A DNA stretch of 64,000 nt, from NCBI GenBank assembly GCA_024397875.1, contig CP073344.1, forward strand, positions 1,355,001 to 1,419,000. Reading direction: 5' to 3'. Positions 50,929 through 56,640 of the stretch are shown in pieces; within the stretch, counting starts at the first letter, position 1, and each line of letters begins with the position of its first letter. The translations under genes and the position numbers were made by a program. Origin of the DNA: Amphritea atlantica (GTDB taxonomy: Bacteria > Pseudomonadota > Gammaproteobacteria > Pseudomonadales > Balneatricaceae). The notes beneath the pieces were generated by a model. It ran no database searches. It was not told the origin of the DNA and saw nothing but the letters and a program-made list of their open reading frames with translations.

Positions 50929-51161
50929 GTTTTGAAAAGCCGAATAAGTCGTAGTTCGTCGTTCGAACGTCACAAAAAGCGTGACTTGCTCGTCGCTCGC
51001 AAGAGCCTGTTTAAGATATTCCGTGGTAATGGGGTAAAATCACTCTGTGCCCTCGGTGGTGAAAAACTCTTCCTCGCTGCACAAACCCAGAATCGAACCT
51101 TGCTACAAATTAGTTTCTTATTATTGTCTCTTATCCGCTGTGGATAATTCCCTCTGTTTTT

Positions 51162-51177
51162 CTGACTATATATACAG
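51162..51177. promoter_or_regulatory. LexA-like box in the left flank
   Basis: CTGACTATATATACAG keeps the ACAG half and AT-rich centre of a LexA operator, but has CTGA in place of CTGT. Integron integrase promoters are often LexA-controlled, yet no intI gene flanks this site. Confidence 0.35.
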
Positions 51178-51328
51178 TTAATTGGGATAAATCAGAAATG
51201 ATGGCACGCTTTGTCACTCACAGATCTGAAAAAAGCGCGTTTTGTCACTGGTATAACCCTTTAAAGTGGTGCAATATCAGACAGATAAGGATATCAACAG
51301 GTGAGATTATTTGCCGGTTGAAAGTAAC

Positions 51329-51348
51329 AAAACGCGCATGCGCGTTTT
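51329..51348. repeat. Perfect 20-base palindrome
   Basis: AAAACGCGCATGCGCGTTTT is its own reverse complement. The preceding bases read GTAAC, so it could be the R'' side of an attC-like structure ending at 51464, with the related CAAAACGCGCACGC at 51431 on the other side. That reading is uncertain. Confidence 0.6.
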
Positions 51349-51457
51349 CAGGGGATGAAAAACGACGTGCTTCAGAATTACTCTTTTAGTTCAGATAGAT
51401 ACAACTTCCCTATCCGCAGTCTTGCGGTGTCAAAACGCGCACGCACACAATTAAAAT

Positions 51458-51467
51458 GTTAGCTGCC
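51458..51467 (+). other. Cassette boundary (attC R' core) opening cassette 1
   Basis: GTTAGCTGCC here is the exact reverse complement of GGCAGCTAAC at 51905-51914, at the end of the same cassette's gene. That pairing of the first bases of an integrated cassette with the R'' box of its own attC is the signature of integron cassettes. Confidence 0.75.
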
Positions 51468-51478
51468 AAAGAGGTTCT

Positions 51479-51913
51479 ATGGAAATTAAGCAAATTCAGG
51501 GATATCGAATAGTCTCACTTATTACTCTTATTGTTTCGTTGGCAGCAGCGTATCCAATAGTCGACTCAGAAAACTTAAAGATTGCTGGATTTATCAGCGG
51601 CGCACTTGGTTCGTTTTTACTTGGACTAGCTGCATTCAGTGTCACCTTGAGATACGTTTGTCATCTGTTCTCAAAAATAAATCATCTTGGCTTTGTTCGT
51701 TTTGTCTCAGGCCTAGTTCTAATGCTGGCGGTTGTCTTCGCTTGGTTTTTTGCCGTAATGAAATTAGCGGTAGTTCCCGCTGTTAATGGTGAGGTTAATT
51801 CCGAGTTCGTATTGCCTGCCCTGTTGGGGGTGGTCAATGGTGGCTCAGGTGTTTTATATTTCTATTTCATCTGGCCATTTAAACAAAAGTTTGTGTTAGT
51901 TCATGGCAGCTAA
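51479..51913 (+). CDS. Cassette gene 1: small four-helix membrane protein
   Basis: 144 residues with about four membrane helices (VSLITLIVSLAAAYPIV; AGFISGALGSFLLGLAAFSV; FVSGLVLMLAVVFAWFFAV; LPALLGVVNGGSGVLYFYFI). No recognised family. It starts 21 bases after the cassette boundary with AGAGG as RBS, and its TAA lies inside the R'' box, as is typical of compact integron cassettes. Codon usage is more AT-rich than flanking chromosomal genes. Confidence 0.75.
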   Translation: MEIKQIQGYRIVSLITLIVSLAAAYPIVDSENLKIAGFISGALGSFLLGLAAFSVTLRYVCHLFSKINHLGFVRFVSGLVLMLAVVFAWFFAVMKLAVVPAVNGEVNSEFVLPALLGVVNGGSGVLYFYFIWPFKQKFVLVHGS

Positions 51914-52009
51914 CAAAACAATCTTGTTCAGCCAGCAAGCTGGCTTGGGACTAGTACTCGCTGGCTTCGCCAATGCGCTCGCACTAGCCCCAAATTGTAT
52001 GCGTTACAT
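51907..52009 (+). other. attC recombination site between cassettes 1 and 2
   Basis: About 103 bases. The left end CAGCTAACAAAACAAT pairs imperfectly with the right end ATTGTATGCGTTAC (R''-L'' with L'-R'), and internal arms TTGGGACTAGT and ACTAGCCCCAA pair with one mismatch. The long imperfect palindrome with extrahelical bases and a terminal GTTA is the attC pattern. The R' core GTTACAT departs from the GTTRRRY consensus at one position. Confidence 0.75.
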
Positions 52010-52036
52010 GCACAACAAGTAGGAAGCATTGAAGTA

Positions 52037-52492
52037 ATGAAGAAGTTTTTTAAATATTTAGGATTTGGCTTTTTAAGCGTTGTTGTCTTTTTTATAGCCA
52101 TTATCGTTATTACAAGTATTGGCGGCATCGACAAAGAAGAGACTTTTCCACCATATATTACTGAGGCTGTTCCAAAGCTGACCACTTGGGATATCGAACA
52201 ATACAAACTATTGATGTCCGAGCAGGGTATTGAGGCGGCCACTCCGGAACAGTGGGCGCTTTACCTTGAGATGTTTAAAAAGCTTGGTCAGCTTCAATCA
52301 GTTGGTGTGCCAGAACTACAAAATTCGCGTGTAGCATCAACGGTTGCCACGGGTAACACCACCTATGCTGTTTATTTGGTGCCACTAACCTTTGATACAG
52401 GGGAAGCTCATGTACAGCTAGGGCTTCAGCATAATGATGGAAAAGTGGAAATTAATAGTGTTCGTTTCCTTTCAGATTTGCTGCTCAAGTGA
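52037..52492 (+). CDS. Cassette gene 2: membrane-anchored protein of unknown function
   Basis: 151 residues from ATG 52037. One N-terminal membrane helix (FGFLSVVVFFIAIIVITSIG) precedes a soluble domain with TTWDIEQYKLLMSEQGIEAA and a beta-rich end (TYAVYLVPLTFDTGEAHVQL). No recognised family. The frame is open upstream to 51995, but that would start inside attC. Cassette begins GTTACATGC (52003-52011); GCATGTAAC at 52494-52502, two bases after the stop, is its exact reverse complement. Confidence 0.7.
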   Translation: MKKFFKYLGFGFLSVVVFFIAIIVITSIGGIDKEETFPPYITEAVPKLTTWDIEQYKLLMSEQGIEAATPEQWALYLEMFKKLGQLQSVGVPELQNSRVASTVATGNTTYAVYLVPLTFDTGEAHVQLGLQHNDGKVEINSVRFLSDLLLK

Positions 52493-52493
52493 A

Positions 52494-52502
52494 GCATGTA
52501 AC
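52494..52502 (+). other. R'' box of attC 2, separated from the rest by the IS
   Basis: GCATGTAAC complements the cassette start at 52003-52011 exactly. The IS RE begins immediately after it; the remainder of this attC resumes at about 54084 on the far side of the IS. Confidence 0.75.
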
Positions 52503-52959
52503 ACATATGAGCCTTCCCGAAGTCAATAAACAATAACGCTCTTATCTGGCCGCGAAGCGGCCAGTGCTTTTCAATAAATCAGTCAGCCAGTTGTCTTCGT
52601 CTGTCATCGTGGTTGCCAAAACGAATTTGCAACAAACACATATTGAGACTCTCTTACCCCGTGCTCAACGGGTGCCAGCCTATTTATCGTCCCTGAAGCA
52701 GGCGGGGGTACTAGACATTCATCGGTTAACCTGAGAAAGGCGCTATTCAAAACTGTGGAATAGATTTCCAGTTAGTATCAGGCTCAGTTCAGGTGCAAAC
52801 CGCTTTACTGATTATTCATGCACGCCAGTGAAGCGTCTAATCAAGGCCAGGGGCTAATGTGCCCGGACCAGAAGATCGATACTTCTGTTTAGTGATTACC
52901 CGATCTTCGACGGTCTCTGATATTTCCAGTTAGGTCTTCAGCTCACTCCACTGCGTGAC
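52503..52959 (-). ncRNA. Candidate bridge-RNA region of the IS
   Basis: 457 non-coding bases lie downstream of the transposase stop, against only 82 upstream of its start. In the IS1111 subgroup the bridge RNA that pairs with target and donor is encoded in this 3' segment. It contains a perfect 8-base stem with a 3-base loop (CTGGCCGC-GAA-GCGGCCAG, 52546-52564), conserved in weaker form in the relative at 55940-55965. The exact RNA ends are not determined. Confidence 0.45.
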
Positions 52960-54003
52960 TCACCCGGTTAAAAATTTTTGTTCATCAAATACCTGCTGGT
53001 TTTTAAGCATAAAATAAACACAACGCCCCAGTTTATGGGCCAGGGCGGTGAGCGCCTTCGCTTTACCCATACGTTTATGTAAGCGGGCCAGATATGACTG
53101 TGCTTTCTCATTTCCTCTTAGATAACCCACGGCGACTTCGCCAAAAGCCCATCTCAGGTGTGCGTTACCGATCTTATTACCCTGAGTACCGTAAATCTTC
53201 CCGGCGGACTCAGCCCGGCATTTGATCAATCGGCTGTAAGAGGCAAACTTCTGAACACTGTCAAAGCGGGTAATATCTCCAATCTCATACAGGATCGTGA
53301 GTGCCAGTATGCGTCCCATGCCGGGTAAGCTGGTTAAAATATGATAATCCCGGCCATTGTGATGTTTGGCGTGTTTTTCGATATAGCACTCGATAGAGCT
53401 GAGCTGCCGATGGTAAAAATCGATAATGTTAAGATCCAGATCGATACTTTTCTGCACGGACTCATCAGAGAACGTATGCCTCATCTGCTCTCGAGCACTG
53501 GGATAGCGTAGATTCAGGTTGTTCGGTGGCAGGTTGTACTGGCTGGTCGTGTTTTTAACATGGGCTTTCAGATCGGCACCGTGTTGTACAACCCGAGTTC
53601 GTCGGCGGAGCAGGTCGCGGGTTGCCCTCATCTCAGCAGGATAGACATAGGCTAAGGGGAAGTTTCCTCCCCGGATAAGATGTGCAATTTTGTAGGAATC
53701 GATCCGATCGTTCTTGGCTTTACCCCCATGGATCGCTTTCATATACAGGGCGTGACCCAGGATAAAATCGATGTTATGTTCATGGCAGAAATCTGAAATC
53801 CAGTACCAGCAATGCATGCATTCGACACCGACAACCACATTACCGAGGTAGGGTGTCAGCAGGTCTAACAGGGGTTCTGGTCTGGCTTTGATCTCTTTAT
53901 GAAGCGCAGTTTGCCCATCATCATCTAAAATACAGACGTACAGGGAACGTGCATGCAGGTCGATACCGCAGTAAAAAGGATGATTATCAGTGTAAAATCT
54001 CAT
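52960..54003 (-). CDS. IS110-family DEDD transposase/recombinase
   Basis: 347 residues, intact. N-terminal RuvC-like DEDD domain: Asp15 in YCGIDLHARSLYVCI, Glu61 in VVGVECMHCWYWI, Asp99 and Asp102 in KNDRIDSYKIAHLI. C-terminal Tnp_20 domain: ILTSLPGMGRILALTILYEI, YSRLIKCRAESAGKIYGTQG (conserved Ser region) and KIGNAHLRWAFGEVA. No frameshift, so it may be active. It acts with a bridge RNA in this family. Confidence 0.93.
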   Translation of the reverse strand: MRFYTDNHPFYCGIDLHARSLYVCILDDDGQTALHKEIKARPEPLLDLLTPYLGNVVVGVECMHCWYWISDFCHEHNIDFILGHALYMKAIHGGKAKNDRIDSYKIAHLIRGGNFPLAYVYPAEMRATRDLLRRRTRVVQHGADLKAHVKNTTSQYNLPPNNLNLRYPSAREQMRHTFSDESVQKSIDLDLNIIDFYHRQLSSIECYIEKHAKHHNGRDYHILTSLPGMGRILALTILYEIGDITRFDSVQKFASYSRLIKCRAESAGKIYGTQGNKIGNAHLRWAFGEVAVGYLRGNEKAQSYLARLHKRMGKAKALTALAHKLGRCVYFMLKNQQVFDEQKFLTG

Positions 54004-54085
54004 GGGTCTTCTCCTTTTGGTTTGGTCGCCTTCCAGCTTAGTGTGAAAACGGTAAGCTGGGGGGAGAAGGCTCTATGAGTATCAA

Positions 54086-54151
54086 GTCAATCAACTACGC
54101 GCCTTCGGCGCCGGACGCGCTAACGCGCGCCGGTTATTGAGGGGTTAGTGC
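54086..54151 (+). other. Right part of attC 2 and start of cassette 3
   Basis: TCAATCAACTACGCGC pairs, with bulges, with GCGCGCCGGTTATTGA, enclosing a GC-rich apex, and the site ends GGGGTTAGTGC. Joined to 52494-52502 it restores a normal attC beginning GTAACAAGTCAATC. GTTAGTGC at 54144-54151 opens cassette 3. Confidence 0.75.
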
Positions 54152-54168
54152 AAAAGGGAGGTTAAGCA

Positions 54169-54645
54169 GTGCCTATTGAGACAGAGCATAGAGGGATTGA
54201 CGGATACATATATCTGACCGCATGCAAATACTATCGGGCTGCTGGTTACATACCCAGTGAAGATCGGGGTGCGCCATATTACGTTAACCTTGCGTTCGCT
54301 ATAGAGCTGTTCATTAAATGTTTAGACGTTACAACTAAGACAGTATTTGAAAGCGAAGCTCCATTTCAGATGATTTCCCACGAACAGAAGATACACGCTA
54401 GAGTTCGAGGCCATTCCTTAAAGGGTATGTTTGAAAGTCTTCCTGAAGAGACCAGAAATTCGATTGCTCAAGCATATGTAACTACTGCGGGTAGCAATAT
54501 CCTTGATGACCTTGAGCAAATTAAAGATGTCTTTGTAGATTGGAGATATCATTTTGAACAGGTAGAAATATCTATCCCAATTGATGTTCTCGAAAAAATA
54601 TCTGGATTTTTAAAAGATTACATTGATCATGCATGTAGGCACTAA
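54169..54645 (+). CDS. Cassette gene 3: putative HEPN-like protein
   Basis: 158 residues, all helical. Opens EHRGIDGYIYLTACKYYRAA, then VNLAFAIELFIKCLDVTTKT, RGHSLKGMFESLPEETRN and VFVDWRYHFEQVEI. This order (ELxxKxLL, GHxLxxLF, then a WRY segment) recalls stand-alone HEPN proteins of defence and toxin-antitoxin systems. The RNase motif RX4-6H is not present, so catalysis is not predicted. GTG start with GGAGG 8 bases before. Its TAA lies inside GCACTAAC (54639-54646), the exact reverse complement of the cassette's first bases. Confidence 0.6.
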   Translation: MPIETEHRGIDGYIYLTACKYYRAAGYIPSEDRGAPYYVNLAFAIELFIKCLDVTTKTVFESEAPFQMISHEQKIHARVRGHSLKGMFESLPEETRNSIAQAYVTTAGSNILDDLEQIKDVFVDWRYHFEQVEISIPIDVLEKISGFLKDYIDHACRH

Positions 54646-54674
54646 CAAGTGACTGTGGTGTTCTGTCAATAATA
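54639..54674 (+). other. Truncated attC 3 after cassette gene 3
   Basis: R'' GCACTAAC followed by AAGTGACTGTGG, the expected opening of an attC, then replaced by insertion-sequence remnants. The other half is not recognisable next to it. Confidence 0.55.
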
Positions 54675-54921
54675 TCAGGCTGATTTTTCATTCCAGCGCT
54701 CCTCATTTTTCAGCATAGTATTAAGGATGACGATCAGTTTTCTCATGCCGGCGATCAGGGCCACTTTAGGGAGCTTTCCTACGGCCTTCAGGTGCTCGTA
54801 GTGGCGTTTAAAAACAGGATTGCACTGTAAAGAGAGCATTGCCATAAACATACACAGTGTATATGCGATGGCAGCCACCCCGGATACGACGTTTCTCGAT
54901 AACTGGGGCCGTGTAAAAACT
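54675..54921 (-). pseudogene. Fragment of a second, different IS110-family transposase
   Basis: Only the C-terminal end remains: CNPVFKRHYEHLKAVGKLPK, VALIAGMRKLIVILNTMLKN, EERWNEKSA. This is the conserved tail of the IS110/IS116/IS902 group and differs from the intact IS here. Just upstream IEKRRIRGG is in another frame from AAIAYTLCMFMAML, so there is a frameshift as well as truncation. Confidence 0.8.
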
Positions 54922-55179
54922 TAAATAATTCTACGCTGATCCCACTTATTACAGAAAACCTGATAAGGCTTTAGGCCTGGCTTTAATCTCTTTATGAAGC
55001 ACAGTTTGTCCATCATCATCTAAAATACAGACATACAGGGCACGTGCATGCAGGTCGAAACTGCAGAAAAAGGGATGTTTGTTGGTGTGAAATCTCAAGG
55101 ACCTTATTCTGTTGGTTTATTTGCCTTCCGCTTAGTGTGAAAACAGTAGCCCGGGGGGAGAAGGCTCTGTGAGTATCAA
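54922..55179 (-). mobile_element. Left-end remnant of the IS1111-like element (copy 2)
   Basis: Matches the left end of the intact IS from the transposase N-terminus to GAGTATCAA. It encodes about 43 residues (RFHTNKHPFFCSFDLHARAL, YVCILDDDGQ) but the start codon is TTG in a changed context and the body is missing. The part from GTGTAAAAACTTAAATAAT (about 54910) to the junction at about 54968 is shared with copy 3. Confidence 0.8.
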
Positions 55180-55231
55180 TCGTATGCAGCCAGCCCCCAC
55201 AGAGCTGGGCCGCTGATGCGAGGCGTAAGGC
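55180..55231 (+). other. Right part of an attC opening cassette 4
   Basis: TCGTATGCAGC pairs with GCTGATGCGA with one extra base, inner CCAGC/GCTGG arms pair, and the site ends GAGGCGTAAGGC. The R' core GTAAGGC is one base short of GTTAAGGC or GTTAGGC, so it may be decayed. The left half is replaced by the IS left end. Confidence 0.6.
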
Positions 55232-55244
55232 GGAGGGAGTAAAC

Positions 55245-55898
55245 GTGGATAAGAGCCAACTTCGTACAGTAACAGCGCAACTCGCCAATCCAAGTGGAGA
55301 GCTGGGTGCTGAAATATCGATTAAAATGAATGATACCAACGCGTTCATTACCGCCCGTACAATCGAAGCGCTTGCTCCATCCTCCGGTGATTGCATCGTC
55401 GAGATCGGTCCGGGTAACGGAGCTTTATCATGCGGGCTCGTGCAGACTATAGGTGCTGAAGGACGCTATCTTGGTATAGAAATTTCTGAGGAGATGGCTC
55501 AAGTTTGCGAAAAAATGCTTCGCGACATCAGCGAAGCCCGAATCGATGTGCATGCGGGTGATTGCGACACCGCATCAGTGGCGAATGCAAGCATAACCGG
55601 ACTGATGGCAGTCAATGTGCTGTATTTCGTCGAAGATCTGGATGGGCTGCTGGCTCGCATCCGGCCGTGGTTTAAACCTCATGGGCGATGTGTTTTTGGT
55701 ATTCGTCCCGCCCGGACTCTGGAAAGTTTACGCTTTCACGATTTTGGCTATCACATACGCTCCCCCGGGGAGATCATAGACGCGATGCAGGCACAGGGCT
55801 TTGGTGAGATTTCAATGACACACTATGATGAAGGGGAGGGGCGTTTGGGTGACATAGCCTTTCCCAATGGATCAATTATTATCAAGGCTTCAGTATGA
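55245..55898 (+). CDS. Cassette gene 4: class I SAM-dependent methyltransferase
   Basis: 217 residues. Motif I DCIVEIGPGNGALSCGLVQT, acidic motif II YLGIEISEEMA, HAGDCDTASV and LMAVNVLYFVEDLDGLLARI. Similar to small-molecule (UbiE-like) methyltransferases; acceptor unknown. GTG start with GGAGGG 8 bases upstream. After the TGA comes GAGCCTAC, a degenerate partner of the cassette start GTAAGGC, then an IS right end. Confidence 0.75.
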   Translation: MDKSQLRTVTAQLANPSGELGAEISIKMNDTNAFITARTIEALAPSSGDCIVEIGPGNGALSCGLVQTIGAEGRYLGIEISEEMAQVCEKMLRDISEARIDVHAGDCDTASVANASITGLMAVNVLYFVEDLDGLLARIRPWFKPHGRCVFGIRPARTLESLRFHDFGYHIRSPGEIIDAMQAQGFGEISMTHYDEGEGRLGDIAFPNGSIIIKASV

Positions 55899-55904
55899 GC
55901 CTAC

Positions 55905-56359
55905 ATATATGAGCCGTCACGGAGTCAATCGACAATAACGCTCTTATATGGCTGTGAAATGGCCATTGCATTTCTTTCAATCAATCAGCCTGTTGTCTTC
56001 TTCTTCTTCTTCTTCTTCTTCTTCCATGGTTACTGTCAAAACGAGTTTGCAACACACAGATATTGAGACGCGCTTACCCCTGGGTATTTTCGGTCAGTGT
56101 AAAAACTTAAATAATGCTACGCTGAGCCCGTATTACATAAAACCTGATAAGGCTTCAGGCCTGGCTTTAATCTCTTTATGAAGCACAATTTGTCCACCAT
56201 CTGAGAGACGACGTACAGGGCGCGTGTATGCAAGTCGATACCGCAGTACAAAGGGTCATTATCAGTGTAATATCTCATGGGTCTTCTCCTTTGGGTTTGG
56301 TCGCCTGCCAGCTTTGTGTGAAAACAGTAAACCGGGGGGGCACGACCTATGAGTATCAA
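55905..56359 (-). mobile_element. Internally deleted, MITE-like derivative of the IS (copy 3)
   Basis: About 455 bases with both ends of the IS: right end homologous to 52503-52660 (CGACAATAACGCTCTTATATGG region) and left end homologous to 54000-54085. The transposase is reduced to about 45 N-terminal codons (RYYTDNDPLYCGIDLHTRAL) with a frameshift. The junction AAAACCTGATAAGGCTTCAG is shared with copy 2, so one deletion event gave rise to both. It could be mobilised only in trans. Confidence 0.78.
55996..56024. repeat. (TCT)n microsatellite inside IS copy 3
   Basis: About nine and two-thirds TCT units in a row. The corresponding place in the intact IS (near 52596) has only TCTTCGTCTGTC, so the array expanded in this copy alone. 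Confidence 0.9.
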
Positions 56360-56399
56360 AGCGTTGCGCCGGACAAATCGGTGAACAGGGCGTTATAAC
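56360..56399 (+). other. Right part of an attC opening cassette 5
   Basis: After the IS left end, a short imperfect hairpin (CGCCG...CGGTG) ends GGGCGTTATAAC. GTTATAAC at 56392-56399 would open the next cassette. No exact R'' partner is seen after the lipoprotein gene, so the array probably decays here. Confidence 0.5.
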
Positions 56400-56427: not shown

Positions 56428-56640
56428 ATGAAATCAAAATTCTTTAGCTTATTTATATGCACAGCATCTTTGTTCATATTAACTGCGTGTGCTGAATTAA
56501 AAGATAGTGGCAGAACTATCGGTCATGCAGCAAAGGATGTAACGACATCAATAGGGCACGCTAGTCGGGATACGGCTAAATCTATAGGAGAGAATACCAA
56601 GAGCGTCGTGAACGATGTAACAAATAGTGTGGGTGAATAA
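56428..56640 (+). CDS. Cassette gene 5: small entericidin-like lipoprotein
   Basis: 70 residues. Signal with lipobox LTAC (FICTASLFILTACAELKDSG). The mature part is built of about 11-residue amphipathic repeats (TIGHAAKDVTT, SIGHASRDTAK, SIGENTKSVVN), like entericidin-type and LEA-like surface lipoproteins. Membrane-associated stress or toxin role is only a guess. RBS GAAGG 7 bases before ATG. Followed by a terminator-like hairpin at 56669. Confidence 0.7.
   Translation: MKSKFFSLFICTASLFILTACAELKDSGRTIGHAAKDVTTSIGHASRDTAKSIGENTKSVVNDVTNSVGE

Follow-up and report, generated by a model that had tools for sequence, protein, structure and literature searches.

How does an array of gene cassettes come to stand in a chromosome with no integrase gene beside it, and does such an array have a recognizable beginning? 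These questions are raised by a locus of Amphritea atlantica lying within a 64,000-nucleotide stretch of contig CP073344.1 (assembly GCA_024397875.1), the whole of which is called the window here. Positions 51458–56399 of the window (C1:1406458–1411399 of a 4.55-Mb genome in two contigs, referred to as G000) are a cassette array with no adjacent integrase gene (intI). The original prediction, made from the letters of the sequence, had described the array as resembling a cluster of attC sites lacking an integrase (CALIN). The comparison to CALINs is apt in that the cassettes have no neighbouring integrase gene, but the array is not headless: it begins at a recognizable copy of attI, the site at which an integron takes up cassettes. 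This attI copy has no integrase gene of its own, and we consider it probable that an integrase whose gene lies at another place inserted the cassettes in trans.

The array begins at a dispersed attI

The left boundary of the array was apparent from comparison with a sister species (G006), in which 389 bp are 93% identical to the window. The match ends exactly at 51458, with the G before TT, and the sequence beyond it differs. The array had been predicted to begin at 51458, whereas its true start, at attI, is approximately 320 bp further to the left. The features of this segment, in window coordinates, are as follows.

51138–51458, plus strand: orphan attI, including what is left of the promoter side of intI, best conserved at 51236–51458; crossover G at 51458
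51329–51348, no strand assigned: perfect 20-bp palindrome AAAACGCGCATGCGCGTTTT within attI
51355–51462, plus strand: short open reading frame (ORF) of 35 codons, MKNDVLQNYS...TQLKC, with the stop TAG from the cassette core GTTAG

The 389-bp repeat is dispersed, with matches in 8 of the 17 genomes of the genus. In the A. atlantica genome, four orphan copies are clear and another match is short and partial; one attI copy adjoins a stop-interrupted intI. Most copies of the repeat end at the G corresponding to 51458, and in most of those inspected a cassette-like gene follows at this G/TT. GTT continues after the repeat in 18 of 24 copies from the genus and in 22 of 25 from other genera. We then asked of each copy whether the bases at the crossover had an exact reverse complement downstream, as expected of the R′ and R″ parts of a cassette and its attC site. 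A reverse complement of at least 8 bases was present within 1.6 kb in 11/24 genus copies, as compared to 8/459 control positions (Fisher p 2e-11), and in each of the 11 copies the partner lay no more than about 20 nt from the point where the following ORF stops. Among the copies from other genera 9/25 passed this test. The copy of G009, a genome of the genus, has a 9-base partner 4.8 kb away, beyond the 1.6-kb reach. The genus set comprised 24 of 25 loci (L153 was left out) and the other-genera set 25 of 30 (L189, L190, L197, L208 and L213 were dropped beforehand, their core not being recognized). For copies outside the training set of the census model R1, described below, the counts were 11/12 for GTT and 4/12 for the R′/R″ test.

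The relation of the repeat to intI identifies it. In G009, the repeat has an intact intI on one side and the first cassette on the other. A test profile constructed from 42 repeat copies, all of them away from intI, matched the attI place at 8 of 11 intI loci, namely those of G009, G005, G003, G015, G016b and the A. atlantica intI-B within the genus, and those of G062 and G023 in other genera. In 118,289 bases taken from elsewhere in the A. atlantica genome, the profile had no match with an E value of 1 or less, and it had none at the intI loci of G008, G016a and the A. atlantica intI-A, whose integrases differ from the other intI products in about half of their residues. The four orphan copies of A. 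atlantica share 68–92% identity with the G009 attI and 44–51% with the attI of intI-B. Because a profile built only on orphan copies finds the attI place at 8/11 intI loci and nothing in the negative sequences, we take the repeat to be attI; judged by its sequence, the 389-bp segment left of cassette 1 belongs to a family of dispersed attI sites. When G003 and 13 genomes of other genera were searched with a strict motif, 0/14 had a match, and a 63-base query matched all 13 of the other-genera genomes, which had been picked for earlier hits.

Cassettes and attC sites

The array downstream of attI consists of the following elements.

51459–52003, plus strand: cassette 1; gene 51479–51913, 144 amino acids (aa), membrane protein-like by eye, no family above cut-off
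51905–52011, plus strand: attC1, intact, with an R′/R″ pair and a fold z of -3.5
52004–54144, plus strand: cassette 2, with an insertion sequence (IS) inside its attC; gene 52037–52492, 151 aa, no family above cut-off
54084–54151, plus strand: right half of attC2, up to the core GTTAGTGC
54145–55225, plus strand: cassette 3; gene 54169–54645, 158 aa, no family above cut-off; attC broken by IS remnants
55226–55904, plus strand: cassette 4; gene 55245–55898, S-adenosylmethionine-dependent methyltransferase domain (PF08241, 8e-11)
56358–56399, plus strand: right half of the last attC, ending GGGCGTTATAAC; fold no better than shuffles

The self-complementarity on which the original prediction had been based was confirmed for all three of the cassettes concerned, each pair being present and exact: GTTAGCTGCC at 51458 with GGCAGCTAAC at 51905–51914, GTTACATGC at 52003 with GCATGTAAC at 52494–52502, and GTTAGTGC at 54144 with GCACTAAC at 54639–54646. 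At GTTR positions in three other stretches of the same genome, used as controls, exact reverse complements within 1.6 kb were found for 8 bases in 8/459, for 9 bases in 2/459 and for 10 bases in 0/459. The attC1 sequence (51905–52011) forms a bottom-strand hairpin (z = -3.5, 200 shuffles), and attC2, with its flanks joined across the IS, gave a z of -1.9 against shuffles. Joined attC3 (z 0.1) and joined attC4 (z 0.6) folded no better than shuffled sequence. Five small plus-strand genes had been counted in this region. The fifth (56428–56640) has no recognizable attC behind it, so that its cassette status is not established, and the core sites of cassette 4 are degenerate (GTAAGGC and GCCTAC). 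Scans for attC that combined a core motif with a fold filter were used only as a guide, since one of them, at the cut applied, gave 3.2 hits for each 10 kb and strand of shuffled sequence, too many for counting, and two others overlooked attC1 of the window. An Rfam search at the gathering threshold gave no match.

It had been proposed that the cassette reading would fail if attC models failed at all five boundaries and relatives carried these genes as fixed chromosomal neighbours; in fact, none of 11 relative stretches encodes any of the window cassette genes. A thiolase gene and a monooxygenase-like gene are both kept as flanking neighbours in five relatives, and no clean empty site was found between them, the relatives compared holding other inserts there. 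Comparison of ORFs of at least 70 aa showed no gene common to the eight arrays of the A. atlantica genome, except for a duplicate within the array at 2.737 Mb. In that orphan array (L170, G000:C1:2726001–2738500), one cassette gene is present twice, the two copies being about 92–93% identical. The methyltransferase cassette gene (55245–55898) of the window had a PADLOC match to mads_2 (1.2e-12, 45.5 bits) covering the methyltransferase part only, which probably reflects a common fold.

Integrase genes of the genome and of the family

No intI match was found within the window, as predicted. The wider description of the array as lacking an integrase is correct locally, but not for the genome, because an intact intI (intI-A) is located on the same chromosome about 617 kb from the array, and a second gene (intI-B, G000:C1:1514670–1515608), interrupted by one in-frame TGA, is located about 103 kb from it. 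The intI-A gene belongs to another clade, with about 50% identity, and is not accompanied by an attI of the window type. Downstream of intI-B (L024) there are several attC-like sites, another IS110-type element and two identical IS3-type-like copies, the types having been assigned by eye. In a further attI-headed locus of this genome (L172, G000:C1:600001–612500; attI at 610994–611251), a 450-aa ORF that runs on the opposite strand and by eye resembles a group II intron reverse transcriptase comes after the first cassette, and a group II intron may occupy the attC of that cassette.

We extended the search to 116 genomes of the family using R1, a sequence-only model built from 46 sequences, of which five are linked to intI (L141, L166, L167, L169 and L191; hits at these loci are by construction). 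At E 1e-4 or better, 236 matches were obtained in 70 of the 116 genomes. Under E 1e-12 there were 119 matches in 40 genomes, with intI within 1.5 kb in 9 and no intI detected in 110, although for 4 of these 110 the contig begins no more than 1.2 kb away from the start of the match, so that a gene could be cut off there. This cut leaves out three intI-linked matches just below the threshold; among the 150 matches listed (to E 1.8e-10), 12 were intI-linked. Two or more strong attI matches were present in 34 genomes, and in 15 of the 40 genomes with a strong attI, including the single-contig genomes G041 and G049, no intI match was obtained at 1e-60. As far as such matches can tell, the attI set of the family is mostly separated from its integrase gene.

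Origin of orphan sites and change of cassettes

At the window locus, the sequence shared with G006 includes 1.36 kb of left flank at 86% identity and an unbroken intI-less junction (93% identity over the 389 bp), and the cassettes of the two genomes are different. The junction had no similarity to the intI DNA of G009. Because G006 shares the intI-less junction and yet carries other cassettes, the cassettes of the window are likely to have changed after intI was lost. Such a change at attI is the simplest reading of the comparison, and its agent was most likely IntI acting in trans.

At 844 kb, the left flank of the A. atlantica array matches that of G016 over 1.26 kb. Since G009 retains intI at the same locus, intI appears to have been lost there in place. 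G000 and G016 have about 130 bp in common without intI, and their first cassettes differ. A search at 1e-80 for the gene on the right of this array gave no match in the rest of the genus. Within the subfamily to which the window attI belongs, intI-less sequence left of attI is common to separate loci, including C12a and C12b of G006 (75% over 151 nt), which hints at the spread of an intI-less unit. In the orphan arrays G004:C233 and G011:C34 (L157 and L158), the second cassette regions have 98% DNA identity and the first cassettes are different.

Leader ORF and other motifs within attI

The short ORF of the window attI is closed by the core of the first cassette. Similar ORFs were sought in 26 attI sequences, of which four had no start motif and 22 were kept. 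The start motif was located 104 nt before the crossover in 17 of the 22 (16 ATG and one AAG), and an ATG was located at 98 nt in one. The first stop was the TAA or TAG of the cassette's GTTAR in 9/22. When copies of equal length were compared, 12/16 were open over 34 codons in the frame of the ORF, and in those 12 the other two frames were open in 0 and 1. Selection at the codon level was weak (median dN/dS, the ratio of nonsynonymous to synonymous rates, 0.78). In attI1 of class 1 integrons, ORF-11 likewise takes its stop from the cassette core and raises the translation of the first cassette (passages of PMC8876359). The window attI resembles attI1 in having a short ORF across the crossover with a stop provided by the cassette core, as those passages describe for ORF-11, but differs from it in the length of 35 codons and in the peptide.

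A scan of attI for sigma-70 promoters found none. At 51162–51177 on the plus strand, the sequence CTGACTATATATACAG is LexA-box-like, and we presume that it is perhaps a remnant of the integrase promoter; in the alignment, the G009 copy beside the intact intI reads CTGTATATATAGACAG at this place. A close variant of the 20-bp palindrome, AAAACGCGCATGCTCGTTTT, is strongly conserved in other genera, and the palindrome may be a protein-binding site.

Proposed mechanism and alternative explanations

Our explanation of the locus is as follows. An orphan attI would arise by loss of intI in place, as at the 844-kb locus, and possibly also by the spread of an intI-less unit, as in the window subfamily. 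IntI supplied in trans would then recombine circular cassettes into the orphan attI via their folded attC sites, and the attI ORF, closed by the stop of the incoming cassette, is predicted to aid translation of that first cassette. Several observations weigh against this explanation. Of the A. atlantica integrases, the one in the clade of this attI (intI-B) has the in-frame TGA, and the intact intI-A belongs to the other clade. The R′/R″ test within 1.6 kb failed in 13/24 genus copies; the arrays concerned may be decayed or carry insertions, or some of them may not be cassettes. Two arrays of the A. atlantica genome (L028, at 632 kb, and L029, at 3.606 Mb) have attC-like sites, which are short, together with an IS of the window type, and show no recognizable attI head in the stretches examined. 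The case for turnover rests on one clean locus: at 844 kb the bases next to attI differ between G000 and G016, and at 2.737 Mb, where G016 too has an attI, the two genomes share the neighbourhood but neither the cassettes nor the left junction. Differences in cassettes at orthologous sites could also stem from homologous recombination that imported another array.

Among the alternatives, the strongest is that the orphan arrays are former complete integrons that lost intI in place and have been frozen since, in which case the differences in cassettes would predate the loss. We regard this as doubtful, although it accounts for the retention of intI by G009 where G000 and G016 have attI alone, for a 22-aa remnant of the intI N-terminus left of one G011 copy and for the stop within intI-B; moreover, CALINs have been proposed to be degraded integrons (passages of PMC9024848), and because the attI-adjacent bases differ between G000 and G016, these two genomes may each have lost intI independently at the 844-kb locus. 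The unbroken intI-less junction common to the window and G006, with a differing cassette at attI, argues against it by placing the change after the loss, as does the intI-less left sequence that the window subfamily has in common at separate loci, two of them in G006. An exchange of arrays between strains by homologous recombination across attI and its flanks, with no action of IntI on the orphan site, is in our view unlikely. A conserved, multi-copy attI would be a suitable anchor for such exchange, and the interval between the thiolase and monooxygenase genes varies among the five relatives in which the two genes are retained. Nevertheless, the exact G/TT junctions at many unrelated loci would require IntI at least in the donor, and no intI-bearing donor was found at the window locus among the relatives compared.

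The remaining two alternatives concern the nature of the repeat. It is very improbable that the repeat is the end of a mobile element or a promoter repeat with no part in cassette capture: it is dispersed and multi-copy, and part of the left flank recurs as well, but in integrons of this genus and of others its place is between intI and the first cassette, it is followed by GTT in most of the copies counted above, and a search of plasmid and phage collections for attI gave no match. Least probable of all is the landing of the cassettes at an ordinary chromosomal secondary site (attG). IntI can use such sites (PMC12444791 and PMC12901181), but the landing site here is a 220–390-bp repeat homologous to the attI adjacent to intI.

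Insertion sequence and remnants in the attC sites

The original prediction did not mention that the array includes an IS of about 1.58 kb and that remnants lie at the next two attC sites. These elements are listed below.

52503–54083, minus strand: IS of the IS1111-attC type, about 1.58 kb, directly after R″ (TAAC) in attC2; the ends may be off by a few bases
52960–54003, minus strand: DEDD transposase, 347 aa (PF01548 and PF02371; NF033542)
52503–52959, minus strand: non-coding region 3′ of the transposase gene, the expected place of the seekRNA, with blocks conserved over 54 elements
54647–55177, minus strand: IS remnants, a piece of another IS110-type element joined to the 5′ end of an IS of the attC2 type (from 54974)
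55903–56357, minus strand: remnant of the attC2-type IS, internally deleted

The transposase scored 217 bits against NF033542 (NCBIfam, IS110 family RNA-guided transposase; cut-off 140). Four full copies of the IS are present in the A. atlantica genome, and all four lie directly after CAnnTAAC, which resembles the R″ side of attC. In a set of 81 elements (80 relatives from named genomes and that of the window), the IS end ...TCATA../GTTA was observed in 60; this number is the 66 pattern hits minus six that were not IS ends (L041, L049, L073, L074, L081 and L087), and 15/81 elements had no hit, some of them because contig ends cut the elements short. The repeat GAGCCTTC is present at both ends of the IS; elements of the IS1111-attC group have subterminal inverted repeats with extensions of 7 and 3 bp, and a seekRNA from the non-coding region that matches the target. 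No convincing target match was found for guide segments of the presumed seekRNA in the non-coding region. The IS remnants interrupt the two attC sites that follow attC2; the piece of the other IS110-type element (54642–54894, its type assigned by eye) is 92.6% identical to C1:1519395–1519648.

The IS1111-attC group includes ISKpn4 and ISPst6, which insert at one end of attC (passages of PMC11187229). The window IS is similar to the group described there in its DEDD transposase, its insertion at an attC end and its non-coding region 3′ of the transposase gene. It is unlike the named members in that its lineage occurs in many marine gammaproteobacteria, the nearest named relative being 93% identical. 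In the series of events proposed above, the entry of this IS110/IS1111-type element into attC2, and the leaving of remnants at the next two attC sites, would have come later. As the IS and the remnants lie in attC sites, those cassettes would be frozen.

Relation to known systems and significance

The IS and the array are both of known kinds. With cassettes that carry attC or attC-like sites and no adjoining intI, the array is like a CALIN, but unlike CALINs it starts at an attI copy that can be recognized as one of a dispersed family. Sequenced genomes were reported to contain 2961 CALINs and 2760 complete integrons, and IntegronFinder to detect no attI outside class 1 (both in passages of PMC9024848). 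The window locus also resembles a sedentary chromosomal integron (intI, attI and cassettes), sharing the attI type, the G/TT core and the attC cassettes, and differs from it in being without intI. In the Δ-attI-type cassettes described in PMC12901181, fragments of attI lie within unusual cassettes of mobile integrons. Those have in common with the present case an attI sequence away from its own intI, whereas here the attI copies form the heads of arrays that are dispersed over the chromosome. Xanthomonas CALINs likewise form arrays at several loci away from the integron; these loci are conserved, and the passages of PMC12444791 that describe them report no attI head. A literature search, made with most subscription journals outside its scope, found neither a title nor an abstract dealing with CALINs that are headed by dispersed or orphan attI sites. 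What is new is likely to be an attI set that spans the family and is mostly parted from its integrase genes, with at least one site that has likely changed its cassettes afterwards.

The array has a head that can be found: a dispersed attI, of a kind overlooked by the standard tool. The family provides a sequence model of an attI outside class 1 and adds another attI whose leader ORF takes its stop codon from the cassette. Two questions also become testable: whether in nature an attI can function apart from its integrase, and by what route CALINs originate and remain active. A broader picture, which we offer tentatively and would not yet call probable, is that integrons in this family are split: a single integrase, often lost and regained, would serve a dispersed set of orphan attI sites, about six at most in a genome, every one having a small array and a leader ORF to itself, so that cassettes would be captured and expressed at many chromosomal places simultaneously. 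If this is true, CALINs, which have so far been read as debris, would be working satellite arrays.

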